Below are positions 2,916 to 8,920 of a stretch of 12,360 nt of DNA, one piece after another (the first letter of the stretch is position 1; the number at the start of each line of letters is the position of its first letter). Source of the stretch: a bacterium. Its GTDB lineage: Bacteria; SM23-31; JAUVVT01. The stretch covers positions 1 to 12,360 of the forward strand of contig JAUWXV010000099.1 in NCBI GenBank assembly GCA_030616165.1. The letters run 5' to 3'. The notes under the pieces are model-generated. The model was not told where the DNA came from, did not search any database, and was given only the letters and a program-made list of their open reading frames with translations. The position numbers and the translations under genes are program-made.

Positions 2916-3770
2916 CTACCTGAGCAGCACCATTCTCTTAGTCTGGGTGAATGTCCCAGCCGTCAATCGATAGATGTAGATGCCACTACTTGCCAGCCGT
3001 CCTTGATTATCCCTGCCTTTCCAGATAACCTGATAATAACCTGCAGGCTGGAAGTTATTCACAATGGTCTGCACCTCTTGGCCAATCAGGTTGTAAATTA
3101 TCAAGCGGACCTGAATTCCTTCAGGAAGGCAGTAAGAAATCTTCGTCTCTGGATTGAAGGGATTAGGATAATTTTGATCTAAATAGAACTTGTCTGGTAC
3201 TCCGGAGGAGACTGCTTTTCCAAGTGCATTTGCATCAGAGGCCTTAGCCATAGCCTTAGCCTTCTTAGCCTTAGGCTTCTTAGCCTTAGCCTTTATAATT
3301 ACGCAGTCCCCCCCGTGTATCCAGGTACCATCAAGTAGACGACTACCATCCGAAAGAGATAACATCACTGTGTCCCCGTCACACACAGGGCCAATAGCCT
3401 CCACAATTTCCTGTTTGTCAAATTTAAGAACAAGATCAGGAAATCCATCGCGACCCTTCTTAGTGGTGCAATTACACTCCCCATCTTCAACAAGGGTGGC
3501 GACATCTTTAATACTCCATCTTATTGGCGCAACACCTTCCAGTCTTATAGTACTCACATTTATCGAGTCAACATTTAAGAAGAAACCACCCACAGTCCCC
3601 CCAAGTATCGCTACAGGCAGAACACCCTTAACACCCTTACTTTTAACCTTGAGGGGATTCGGACAGGATTTGGGTTTGATGTCTAATTTCACTTGACAGG
3701 GAAAAGATAATAAGTACCCTGCAATAATAAATACGATAAATATGACTATAATTAACAAGACTCGTTTCAT
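2916..3770 (-). CDS. Secreted protein with type IX (Por-type) C-terminal sorting tail
   Basis: The 284-residue protein starts at an ATG with an excellent Shine-Dalgarno (AAAGGAGGT, minus strand, 3776-3784). Residues ~1-25 are a signal peptide. Residues ~27-160 form a domain seen in many secreted proteins of environmental bacteria, recognisable by 'VKLDIKPKSCPNPL', 'LPVAILGG', 'RLEGVAPIRWS' and 'DGFPDLVLKFD'; its biochemical role is not established to my knowledge. Residues ~160-188 are a Lys/Ala-rich low-complexity linker. Residues ~196-284 are a FlgD-like/type IX sorting domain: 'YLDQNYPNPFNPETKISY', 'VRLIIYNLIGQEV', 'GIYIYRLTAG', 'KRMVLLR'. The product is expected to cross the outer membrane and stay on the surface or be released. 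Cysteines at 25, 36, 99, 101, 130 and 156 in and before the domain may form disulfides. Confidence 0.85.
   Translation of the reverse strand: MKRVLLIIVIFIVFIIAGYLLSFPCQVKLDIKPKSCPNPLKVKSKGVKGVLPVAILGGTVGGFFLNVDSINVSTIRLEGVAPIRWSIKDVATLVEDGECNCTTKKGRDGFPDLVLKFDKQEIVEAIGPVCDGDTVMLSLSDGSRLLDGTWIHGGDCVIIKAKAKKPKAKKAKAMAKASDANALGKAVSSGVPDKFYLDQNYPNPFNPETKISYCLPEGIQVRLIIYNLIGQEVQTIVNNFQPAGYYQVIWKGRDNQGRLASSGIYIYRLTAGTFTQTKRMVLLR
3238..3296. repeat. TTAGCC-type microsatellite encoding the Lys/Ala linker
   Basis: Imperfect hexamer iterations of 'ttagcc', with variants 'ttaggc' and 'ttcttagcc', encode the alternating Lys-Ala linker (residues ~160-177) of the secreted protein. Replication slippage here would lengthen or shorten the linker in steps of two residues without breaking the frame. 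Confidence 0.7.
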
Positions 3771-5208: not shown

Positions 5209-5523
5209 TTACTTAATAAGCGTCATTTTTTTAATAGCAGAAAACTCTCCTGCTTGAAGGTGGAACAAATAGACACCAGAACTGACCAATTTACCTGCTT
5301 CACTTTTTCCGTCCCATTCGAAATCGTAATTTCCTGCAGGCATAGTATCAGATACAAGTGTCCTAACTAAAGAGCCATTAATACTATAAATTTTTAGGAT
5401 TACATTTGAAGATTGAGGTAACTGGAACCGAATCGATGTTGTTGGATTGAAATGATTTGGAAAGTTCTGCTCTAATACATATGAATCTGGTATTATGTCC
5501 TCAATATAGTGTATAATAAACAA
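5209..5523 (-). pseudogene. Orphan type IX sorting domain (C-terminal remnant of a secreted protein)
   Basis: Only ~95 residues of a FlgD-like/type IX sorting domain remain: 'IPDSYVLEQNFPNHFNPTTS', 'VILKIYSINGSLVRTLV', 'MPAGNYDFEWDGKSEAGKLV', 'SSGVYLFHLQAGEFSAIKKM'. The usual NPFNP reads NHFNP. There is no signal peptide and no cargo domain, an in-frame stop lies a few codons upstream of the TTG at 5523, and there is no Shine-Dalgarno. The tail is otherwise intact, so truncation (deletion or recombination at the island edge) was probably recent. It could not reach the periplasm as it stands. Confidence 0.8.
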
Positions 5524-5798: not shown

Positions 5799-6395
5799 AT
5801 GGACAAAACAATTTTAACACCGGAAGAGAGCTTTGATATAATTACTAAAGCTATCTCAAACTTTAAAATGAATTATAAGGAACATGCAAAAATGTTTCTC
5901 CTATGGGGCTGGATGCTGAGTATTGCCAGCTTTTCTAATTTCATTATCTTAAAGATTTTAGACCATAAAGAAGCATACGAACTTTCGGGGATATTTAGTC
6001 TTGGTAATTGGTTTTTGTTTATCTTAAGTACATTTATAATCCTGTTTTTTATGGAGCGGAAAATAAATAAGGATAAGAAAATATATAGCCATTTAGAAAG
6101 TTATATCAATAAACTATGGGCAGTAAGCGGCATTTCAATGTTTGTAGCAACATTCCTTAGTTTTAAATTGGGAATAGTTCCACCAACAATACTTTTGTTA
6201 ATTACCGGTATTGCAACTACAATTACCGGGCTGGTTATTAAGTTTAAACCTTTAATAATTGGGGGTATAGCATTTTTTATATTCAGTATAGCTACAACAT
6301 TTGTATCAAATCACAACACAGCATTAATTACCGGCACGGCTATCATATGTGGTTATCTGATACCAGGATATTTTTTAAAATCAGCAAAAGAATAG
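5799..6395 (+). CDS. Six-helix membrane protein paired with a winged-helix regulator
   Basis: This 198-residue protein has a soluble N-terminus (residues 1-30, 'TPEESFDIITKAISNFK') and about six membrane helices (~32-53, 65-85, 107-125, 128-148, 151-169, 173-193). AAAGGA at 5786-5791 is a well-placed ribosome binding site, and a strong promoter lies upstream. The stop is four bases before the start of a winged-helix DNA-binding protein, so the two are co-transcribed and probably co-translated. From memory, this pair (uncharacterised membrane protein plus HTH_34-type regulator) recurs in Bacteroidota-related genomes. By analogy with membrane-protein/regulator pairs it may sense an envelope signal or control the regulator's activity; nothing in the sequence proves this. 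Confidence 0.85.
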   Translation: MDKTILTPEESFDIITKAISNFKMNYKEHAKMFLLWGWMLSIASFSNFIILKILDHKEAYELSGIFSLGNWFLFILSTFIILFFMERKINKDKKIYSHLESYINKLWAVSGISMFVATFLSFKLGIVPPTILLLITGIATTITGLVIKFKPLIIGGIAFFIFSIATTFVSNHNTALITGTAIICGYLIPGYFLKSAKE

Positions 6396-6399
6396 TATT

Positions 6400-6690
6400 A
6401 TGTACAAAGATTTAGATCCTTTATTACACTCGCAACTCCGGTTGTCAATCGTCTCTACTTTAATAACGGTCGATGAAGCAAATTTTAATTTCATCAAAGA
6501 GACCACTAAGGCTACATCGGGCAATATAAGTATTCAAATAAAGAAATTGCAGGAAGCAGGATATATTAAAGTAGAAAAATCTTTTAAAAATAATTATCCA
6601 AATACGACTTTGTCAATTACAGATAAAGGTGTTGAGGCATTTGAAACCTATGTCAATAATTTGAAAAAATATATTAATCCCGGGAAATAA
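6400..6690 (+). CDS. Winged-helix transcriptional regulator (HTH_34/MarR-like)
   Basis: The 96-residue protein is a single winged-helix domain of the PF13601 type: 'LHSQLRLSIVSTLI' (helix 1), 'NFNFIKETTKATSGNISIQI' with the recognition helix at ~39-52, 'LQEAGYIKVEKSF' leading into the wing, and 'TLSITDKGVEAFETYV' closing it. It has no ligand domain, so control must come from a partner, most simply the membrane protein encoded just upstream. Its probable targets are the inverted repeat in its own promoter (5740-5751) and the similar one before the lipoprotein gene (6707-6725). A T9 tract follows the stop, but no clean stem precedes it, so read-through into the lipoprotein gene is possible. Confidence 0.88.
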   Translation: MYKDLDPLLHSQLRLSIVSTLITVDEANFNFIKETTKATSGNISIQIKKLQEAGYIKVEKSFKNNYPNTTLSITDKGVEAFETYVNNLKKYINPGK

Positions 6691-6725: not shown

Positions 6726-6741
6726 CTTTAAGGAGGTAACT

Positions 6742-8472
6742 ATGAAAAATTCAATTCTTATTTTTATGATTCTCATCCTGACAGTAACAGGATGCAATGC
6801 TCAGGAAAATCCAAAAAGACCAGCTGTGGCAGGTCAAAATAAAAATGAAGAGCATGTTGATAATTCAATTCTTGTTTTCTATCGTCAGTATAGTTCATTT
6901 ACCGATCCGGGAGAATATGAATATTTATATAAAAATCTTCCTGATTCTTTACCAGAGCTTTGCAGTTTAATAAAATCCCAGTTTATTCATCCCTATGCTG
7001 ATTTGCCTAAGTATCGTGAACTAATCCCCAGAGAAAGATGGAATGAAGGATTCAAGTATCCAACAGTTAAATCACAACTGGAGGGACTTCTATCCTATGA
7101 CTCATCGGGTTTAGTGAGAGATCGGAAACCTGAAGATAGATTGGTACTGGCTTGCCGGGATTATGCAATCTTACTGGCATCAATACTTAAATATCGCGGT
7201 ATTCCCGCCAGGGTCCGTTACGGGCACGCTACGTATTTAATCCCTGATTTTCATGCGAGTCATGTCATCTGTGAAGTATGGAATGAAAATGACAACCGAT
7301 GGATGCTTGTGGATCCAAGCACGGAAATGATTGATTTCAGCAGAGAAAAATTTGACTTTAGTCATGATGTCTGGTTAAAAATGCAACAAAAGGAAATAGA
7401 TCCCAACTTATTTGGGATACCTGGCAAATATACCGGACTGGTTTCGATAATATCGAAAGTTTTTGCTGATCTGGCATCGATACTGGGAACCGAATATACA
7501 GCTTATCAGTATGCGCCCATGGTGGATTATGCTTTTGAAAATGACAATCAATTGACTTCGGAACATATAGAAATTCTGAACAGAATAAGTGAATTAATGA
7601 AGTCAATTGATGCTGAAAATATCCGCATATTGCAAAAAATTTATAATAATAATCCTCAAATTCAAATTACAAAATCATTTGAACTTAATACGACACATAC
7701 TGAGAATAACATCAGAAATAGAGAGTCTAAAAAAAATAATTCCAATACTGAAAATAACAATCAAATTAGAGTTTCTTCAAAAAATAAACCCATTATTGAA
7801 TTTGTAGATATACCGGCAGGAACATTCACAATGGGAAGTCCTTCATCTGAAAAGGGAAGAAAAGATGATGAAATACAACATAAAGTTACACTGAACGCTT
7901 TCAAAATGAGTAAATATACTGTAACCTTTGAGCAATATGATTTATTTTGTGAAGCCACAGGAAAAACTAAACCGAGAGGACGTAAACGGGGAAATCTTCC
8001 AGTTTTATGGGTTTCTTGGTATGATGCCAATGCATTTGCAGAATGGATGGGCTGCAGGTTACCAACAGAAGCTGAGTGGGAATACGCAGCTCGAGCAAAT
8101 ACAACTGCTCCCTTTTATACAGGAGATTGCTTGACATCTGATCAAGCTAATTTCAATGGAAGAAAACCTTATACAAATTGTGATAAAAGTGAAAACAGAA
8201 AGAAACTATTACCTGTTGGTAGTTTTCCACCGAATGCATTTGGTTTATACGATATGCATGGTAATATTTGGGAATGGTGCAATGATTGGTATGGTGAATA
8301 TGACATAAATGATAAATTGAATCCACAGGGACCAGATAAAGGAACGCGAAAAGTTGATCGTGGTGGTGCCTGGTATGATCCTGCTTGGAGATGTCGGTCA
8401 GCCTATCGTGCAGGAGGTGATCCACCAGGTAACAGAGGTTCAGGAATTAGTTTTCGAATAGTGAAACTTTAA
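6742..8472 (+). CDS. Lipoprotein fusing a transglutaminase-like and an FGE/SUMF1-like domain
   Basis: The 576-residue protein starts after a strong AAGGAGGT. Residues 1-18 are a lipoprotein signal ('LILTVTGC', lipid Cys18). Residues ~110-200 are a transglutaminase-like fold with the expected triad: Cys138 in 'LVLACRDYAILLASILKYRG', His171/174 in 'FHASHVICEVWNE' and Asp191 in 'RWMLVDPS'. Residues ~315-350 are an Asn-rich linker. Residues ~351-576 are an FGE-sulfatase/SUMF1 domain: 'FVDIPAGTFTMGS', 'SKYTVTFEQYDLFCE', 'CRLPTEAEWEYAARA', 'NAFGLYDMHGNIWEWCNDWY', 'RGGAWYDPAWRCRSAYR', 'GISFRIVKL'. The copper-binding cysteine pair of true formylglycine-generating enzyme is not evident (only one Cys in that C-terminal stretch), so it is more likely a binding module or another activity. 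It should act in the periplasm or at the outer membrane, as a protease-, amidase- or crosslinking-type enzyme. Confidence 0.88.
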   Translation: MKNSILIFMILILTVTGCNAQENPKRPAVAGQNKNEEHVDNSILVFYRQYSSFTDPGEYEYLYKNLPDSLPELCSLIKSQFIHPYADLPKYRELIPRERWNEGFKYPTVKSQLEGLLSYDSSGLVRDRKPEDRLVLACRDYAILLASILKYRGIPARVRYGHATYLIPDFHASHVICEVWNENDNRWMLVDPSTEMIDFSREKFDFSHDVWLKMQQKEIDPNLFGIPGKYTGLVSIISKVFADLASILGTEYTAYQYAPMVDYAFENDNQLTSEHIEILNRISELMKSIDAENIRILQKIYNNNPQIQITKSFELNTTHTENNIRNRESKKNNSNTENNNQIRVSSKNKPIIEFVDIPAGTFTMGSPSSEKGRKDDEIQHKVTLNAFKMSKYTVTFEQYDLFCEATGKTKPRGRKRGNLPVLWVSWYDANAFAEWMGCRLPTEAEWEYAARANTTAPFYTGDCLTSDQANFNGRKPYTNCDKSENRKKLLPVGSFPPNAFGLYDMHGNIWEWCNDWYGEYDINDKLNPQGPDKGTRKVDRGGAWYDPAWRCRSAYRAGGDPPGNRGSGISFRIVKL

Positions 8473-8473
8473 T

Positions 8474-8920
8474 GAGGGGATAAAGAAGTTAGACGATGAG
8501 CTTTCTGAGAAAGGTAAAGAACTTGACGGACATAAGAACATAACCAGTATCAAAGGAATCGGAGATAAGAGTGGAGCGATTTTGCTAAGTGTTATCGGAA
8601 ATATAAATGACTTTGAAAGTGAGAAGAAGTTAGCAGCTTACTTTGGCATAGTTCCCAGGGTAAGCATCTCAAATGAAACTTTACATTCGAGTAGGATCAC
8701 AAAACTTGGAAGCAAACTTGGACGAACAACACTTGTTCAATGTACTTTAATCGCAAAAAGATATTCACCTTATCTGGAAAATTTCTACCAACGAATAAGA
8801 GCTAAAAAAGGAACTGGAAAAGCAATTATCGCAACAGCTAAAAAACTTTTAGGAATAATTTATAAAACACTAAAAAATAATTGGGAATTTGAAGATTTCC
8901 CAAACTTTGTAATAAAATAA
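8474..8920 (+). pseudogene. IS110-family transposase, C-terminal fragment
   Basis: The frame is readable from 8474 and starts one base after the stop of the preceding gene: 'KKLDDELSEKGKELDGHKNI', 'TSIKGIGDKSGAILLSVIGN', 'FESEKKLAAYFGIVPRVSIS', 'HSSRITKLGSKLGRTTLVQC', 'AKKGTGKAIIATAKKLLGII'. This is the linker helix plus the Transposase_20 (PF02371) domain, with the Ser-containing 'HSSRITKxG' motif kept. The N-terminal DEDD RuvC-like catalytic domain and the left end, where IS110-group bridge RNA lies, are missing, so it cannot move by itself. The frame of the remaining part is undamaged, so truncation is recent or the fragment is under selection. An ATG at 8582 could start a 112-residue product. 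Confidence 0.88.

Follow-up and report, generated by a model that had tools for sequence, protein, structure and literature searches.

Gene organization at the locus

The window, by which we mean the whole stretch of 12 360 nt that was analysed, carries a gene (6742..8472, + strand) whose 576 aa product joins a transglutaminase-like (TG) domain to a domain of the formylglycine-generating enzyme (FGE)/SUMF1 fold. The gene is a single unbroken frame of 576 codons closed by a TAA stop at 8470–8472, and the Shine–Dalgarno-like AAGGAGGT (6730..6737, + strand), which can be read directly from the DNA 4 nt 5' of the ATG, is predicted to be a good ribosome-binding site. Directly upstream lie a gene for a small membrane protein (5799..6395, + strand) with six transmembrane (TM) segments predicted from hydropathy and no Pfam family, and a gene for a winged-helix DNA-binding protein of the HTH_34 family (6400..6690, + strand; PF13601, 1.2e-31). 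The same order of 6-TM, HTH_34 and TG genes is found at four other loci (L007, L008, L113 and L114), and in three genomes of the KSB1 phylum the HTH_34 orthologue that immediately precedes the TG gene is 82–86% identical. The HTH_34 protein is probably the regulator of the operon. More distant HTH_34 paralogues adjoin genes for other exported proteins or ABC transporters, so that the 6-TM and HTH_34 pair looks like a reusable regulatory module. The fusion genes of L006 and L009 are followed by genes for a histidine kinase and for a response regulator, which at L009 is of the LytTR type.

Domain architecture of the TG-FGE protein

Both domains score above their curated Pfam cutoffs, Transglut_core at residues 138–192 (28.1 bits, cutoff 23, E 3e-6) and FGE-sulfatase at residues 353–575 (198 bits, cutoff 23.3, E 2.3e-58). 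Both were also modelled confidently by AlphaFold2 from 50 aligned sequences (mean pLDDT 82.7, with both domains mostly at 85–98 and residues 315–346 below 50), in a model whose pTM of 0.58 leaves their placement relative to each other poorly defined; a first model, built from eight sequences, was of low overall quality (pLDDT 52.5) and served for the TG part only. The presence of TG-like and SUMF1-like domains in one protein, which an earlier note on this DNA had claimed, is therefore borne out. A frameshift or a sequencing error joining two genes can be dismissed, because eight further full-length proteins from other MAGs (one each at L006, L008, L009 and L011, two in tandem at L007, and the tandem pair L113a and L113b) keep the same domain order with no stops; a further relative, L010, is a fragment broken off at a contig end. 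The combination is thus real and conserved, and it rearranges two known parts and is not a new kind of system. Our literature searches for TG-FGE fusions returned nothing relevant.

The hydrophobic signal sequence of the window protein (6742..6795, + strand) ends in the bacterial-lipoprotein lipobox VTGC, with its cysteine at residue 18, as recognized by a regular expression and as would be expected of a type II signal peptide; going by this motif, the protein is exported and probably lipid-anchored. The lipid anchor claimed in the earlier note therefore holds for the window copy, but does not extend unchanged to the family, as a canonical lipobox was recognized in four of nine fusion proteins, with L113b (AFGC) and some others near-canonical. 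Much the same is true of the Asn-rich linker, which is present and disordered in the window protein (residues 313–347; 7678..7782, + strand; pLDDT below 50 at 315–346) but is peculiar to it, the length and composition of the linker varying among relatives.

The transglutaminase-like domain

The TG-like domain occupies residues ~40–310 (6859..7671, + strand) and belongs to PF01841 by its profile score, its triad and its fold. The complete Cys–His–Asp triad that had been noticed in it corresponds to C138 (7153–7155), H174 (7261–7263) and D191 (7312–7314), all on the + strand, and these residues are invariant in all seven full-length TG-FGE proteins of our main alignment. When a profile of 14 relatives was compared with the PDB, it matched Pseudomonas aeruginosa TgpA (6g49, E 8e-6) in an alignment that places Cys, His and Asp in register; a weaker match was to 3isr. 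Since the structure list for the better AlphaFold2 model was filled by FGE matches, structural matches for the TG part come from the weaker first model, in which residues ~39–248 match human factor XIII, TG2 and TG3 (Z about 8.1–8.6), the best being factor XIII 1qrk (VIA Z 8.6, rmsd 4.0, 158 aligned) and TG2 and TG3 having Z about 8.4; these are moderate scores, backed by sequence. Compared with the window copy, dN/dS in the TG domain is 0.17–0.33, i.e. the domain is under purifying selection.

The periplasmic domain of TgpA has transglutaminase activity in vitro (PMC3507681). TgpA resembles the window protein in having an extracytoplasmic transglutaminase-core domain with an aligned Cys–His–Asp triad; it differs in being a polytopic inner-membrane protein that lacks an FGE domain, and ~60 residues align by sequence. 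Nearer in length to the TG domain itself are standalone proteins of ~280–330 aa in Rhizobium, Deinococcus, Vibrio and MAGs of WOR-3 and KSB1 (24–37% identity for those aligned), which are of the same TG family over most of their length but have no FGE head, are cytosolic in some cases and are uncharacterized. Standalone relatives, both exported and cytosolic, are common: those of Rhizobium, Deinococcus and Vibrio were found by tblastn of plasmids (280–310 residues), and in the phylum of L011 a TG relative occurs in nine of 147 genomes besides that of L011 itself, those that we read being standalone and several having a signal sequence. Of the 395 genomes sampled from the class of G008, a Mariniphaga MAG, the 394 others gave no TG relative at E 1e-20. 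Most exported standalone relatives have the triad, L128 being an exception with Phe at the Cys position, and the distant cytosolic relatives L094, L097 and L098 have Ser or Gly in place of the catalytic Cys, which indicates that the TG family tolerates loss of catalysis.

The tblastn search of plasmids also turned up TG domains that begin long proteins and have Ser instead of the catalytic Cys, in Paenibacillus, in an NRPS cluster, and in Klebsiella, with the annotation UvrA. Such proteins are encoded at L094:4989-7505 and L097:3992-7816, next to MATE and phosphopantetheinyl transferase genes; L094 is an NRPS cluster with a separate ABC-domain gene adjoining its TG gene, and the long TG protein at L097 is the one annotated UvrA.

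Relatives and interchange of the C-terminal module

In genomes of the KSB1 phylum, the TG domain encoded behind the 6-TM and HTH_34 genes is also seen with other C-termini, namely a type IX sorting tail, or an amidohydrolase and then FGE. The former arrangement is seen in L114, which ends in a T9SS sorting domain, has no FGE domain and shows no lipobox by eye in its signal sequence; the latter is seen in L113b, in which an amidohydrolase is inserted between TG and FGE. Such swaps would be expected of a C-terminus that serves as an exchangeable accessory. L114 may have lost the FGE head or may represent a branch older than its gain, the TG tree being compatible with either. L113b is a protein of 1011 residues (L113:5544-8576) encoded in tandem with a TG-FGE protein.

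The FGE domains of the fusion proteins form one clade (support 100/99) adjoining FGE-like proteins of Bacteroidota, so that the fusion, most simply, arose once. Closely related genes come from MAGs assigned to KSB1, WOR-3, Methanosarcina, Mariniphaga and Peregrinibacteria, in several cases on contigs 3–5 kb long, and the window's own phylum contributed six genomes to the comparison. The fusion proteins encoded at L006, L008, L009 and L011 are near-alike and come from MAGs assigned to widely differing phyla; most of their contigs are short. This spread may be due to misbinning or to horizontal transfer. A phage origin was considered and rejected, as among the matches listed those to phages cover the FGE part only, and queries with the TG domain against viral contigs found no relative.

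The FGE-fold domain

The FGE-fold domain (residues 353–575; 7798..8466, + strand) is assigned to PF03781 by both profile (2.3e-58) and fold, its structural matches being PvdO (Z 29.9, rmsd 2.0, 220 aligned), FGE (Z 28–30), TvpA (Z 28.5), PorK (Z 26.3, 216 aligned) and Mtd (Z about 14.5). The earlier note was right that the usual cysteine pair is missing: in a phmmer alignment, C336 and C341 of human FGE are paired with D546 and A548, and the only nearby cysteine, C551, stands at a different position and is Ser in one relative. The domain therefore lacks the copper-binding active-site pair of a formylglycine-generating enzyme proper. D504, G507 and E511, which we take to be the positions of the second calcium site in human FGE, are kept in nearly all 50 aligned sequences, and the first calcium site is not clearly kept. 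The domain has a dN/dS of 0.08–0.20 against the window copy, which indicates purifying selection.

That the copper cysteines are absent does not prove that catalysis is absent, because PvdO, whose structure is the closest together with that of FGE, carries the annotation dihydropyoverdine dehydrogenase; our literature search returned nothing on the active site of PvdO. The FGE-fold domain might thus be a PvdO-type enzyme that carries out an oxidation without the FGE cysteines, the whole protein then being a two-step bifunctional enzyme. Consistent with this are the top structural match, the NCBIfam PvdO model, which is the best match of its kind, the strong conservation of the domain and the additional enzyme domain, an amidohydrolase, in a sibling protein. 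However, the Z score of PvdO is tied with that of FGE and near that of TvpA, and hence does not point to PvdO; the NCBIfam score of 101.6 bits is far under the cutoff of 500 for PvdO membership; and the replacement of the head by a T9SS sorting tail in L114 is easier to reconcile with an accessory than with an indispensable step of catalysis. We consider a PvdO-type activity unlikely. SUMF1 and PvdO accordingly share their fold with the window domain (Z 28–30), but the window protein has neither the two copper-binding cysteines of FGE nor a score near the PvdO cutoff.

A non-catalytic use of the same fold is provided by PorK, in which a cysteine-less FGE fold is the docking hub for PorN (PMC12421860). 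PorK and GldK, lipoproteins of the T9SS ring (9mzu), are like the window protein in being lipoproteins with a cysteine-less FGE fold, but have no TG domain. This likeness could be taken further, to a protein in which the TG domain is dead or structural and which serves as an envelope binding or scaffold lipoprotein in the manner of GldK, GldJ and PorK. Scaffolding is a role that the fold has in PorK-type lipoproteins (PMC12421860), the NCBIfam models GldK and GldJ both match the FGE domain below their cutoffs, and there are relatives in which Ser or Gly has replaced the catalytic Cys. Set against this, the triad is kept in every aligned full-length TG-FGE protein and in most exported standalone relatives, and the GldK score (90.6 bits) is far under the cutoff of 350 for GldK/PorK membership. 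A purely structural role is in our view improbable.

SUMF1-like folds also occur in the variable proteins of diversity-generating retroelements (DGRs), and a comparison with these had been drawn. The fold supports it, TvpA and Mtd being DGR proteins. TvpA of Treponema denticola (2y3c) is moreover an exported protein of the lipoprotein type with the FGE/C-type-lectin fold, and most DGR targets of T. denticola are predicted lipoproteins (PMC4891356); residues 546–550 of the window protein belong to the C-terminal segment, the part of the fold that DGRs diversify. The remainder of the comparison failed. No reverse transcriptase (RT; PF00078) was found in the MAG, which is 90.2% complete, in a search that was positive in three control genomes, and none was noticed in those neighbourhoods of relatives that were read; no second, template-like copy of the 3' end of the gene was found; and positional entropy among relatives shows no C-terminal peak. 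TvpA differs further in being retroelement-diversified and in having no enzyme domain, whereas the window protein has no hypervariable part and its FGE domain has the low dN/dS given above. The idea that the TG-FGE protein is a surface enzyme whose recognition head is the hypervariable target of a DGR is strongly disfavoured, and we regard it as scarcely credible.

FGE-fold C-termini are also present on proteins that by eye are glycosyltransferase-like (L015:4885-6804) and NTPase-like (L024:2032-4056), and are further uses of the same FGE head.

Proposed role of the TG-FGE protein

Our preferred interpretation, which we hold to be reasonably likely, is that the protein is an envelope amide-bond enzyme (a hydrolase or a transamidase) whose FGE-fold head is inactive and serves in docking or recognition. 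The TG domain is probably a working amide-bond enzyme, and the FGE fold without catalytic cysteines is probably a binding or docking head. The proposal in the earlier note of an enzyme with a recognition head stands to this extent, an exported enzyme with a non-catalytic FGE head fitting all the evidence (the triad, the fold, the missing cysteines and the T9SS-tail swap), while the surface exposure and ligand binding that it implied are putative. Catalytic activity, reaction type, substrate, partner, exact location and regulation are what we infer in the following scheme. After export by the Sec pathway and probable lipidation at C18, the protein would work either in the periplasm or at the outer surface, where the C138–H174–D191 triad would attack an amide or isopeptide bond through a thioacyl intermediate, to be released either to water, as in a hydrolase, or to an amine, as in a transamidase. 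The FGE-fold domain would make no formylglycine and would instead dock or recognize, bringing the enzyme to a partner protein or a surface polymer, and the HTH_34 protein encoded upstream, together with its 6-TM partner, would probably control transcription.

Export also bears on another possible function, that of an abortive-infection or conflict system in which a sensor head is coupled to a peptidase effector. VMAP/STAND systems that contain FGS domains are the model for this, and both FGS domains and transglutaminase-like peptidases are components of such systems (PMC7159879, PMC8195603). The TG-FGE protein is, however, exported and not cytosolic, it has no PADLOC match, and no NTPase, EAD or vWA gene is present among the genes of the window, so that we judge this function very unlikely.

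More tentatively, the envelope amide-bond enzyme proposed here may represent an undescribed family of TG-fold enzymes in KSB1-like bacteria, with a common 6-TM and HTH_34 regulatory pair and one catalytic module to which different C-terminal heads (cysteine-less FGE, a T9SS sorting tail, or amidohydrolase plus FGE) are attached, and the FGE head would then target the enzyme to a particular partner or substrate in the envelope. The TG-FGE protein connects a widespread, uncharacterized bacterial TG-like family with the envelope, as well as with a fold that has been reused elsewhere as a docking hub, and the natural domain swaps offer a means to test the role of the cysteine-less FGE head.

Other features of the window

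Directly 3' of the TG-FGE stop codon lies the C-terminal part of an IS110-family transposase (Transposase_20; 8476-8920), of which the MAG contains no other close copy. The last residues of the window protein, next to this transposase part, are VKL, compared with VK[SD]E and similar endings in relatives. On the minus strand, two proteins with FlgD_ig/T9SS-type C-terminal tails are encoded at 2916-3770 and 5209-5523, the second comprising little beyond the tail. Positions 39-1967 encode a protein of repeated Ig-like units of ~100 residues each, several of which are nearly alike.
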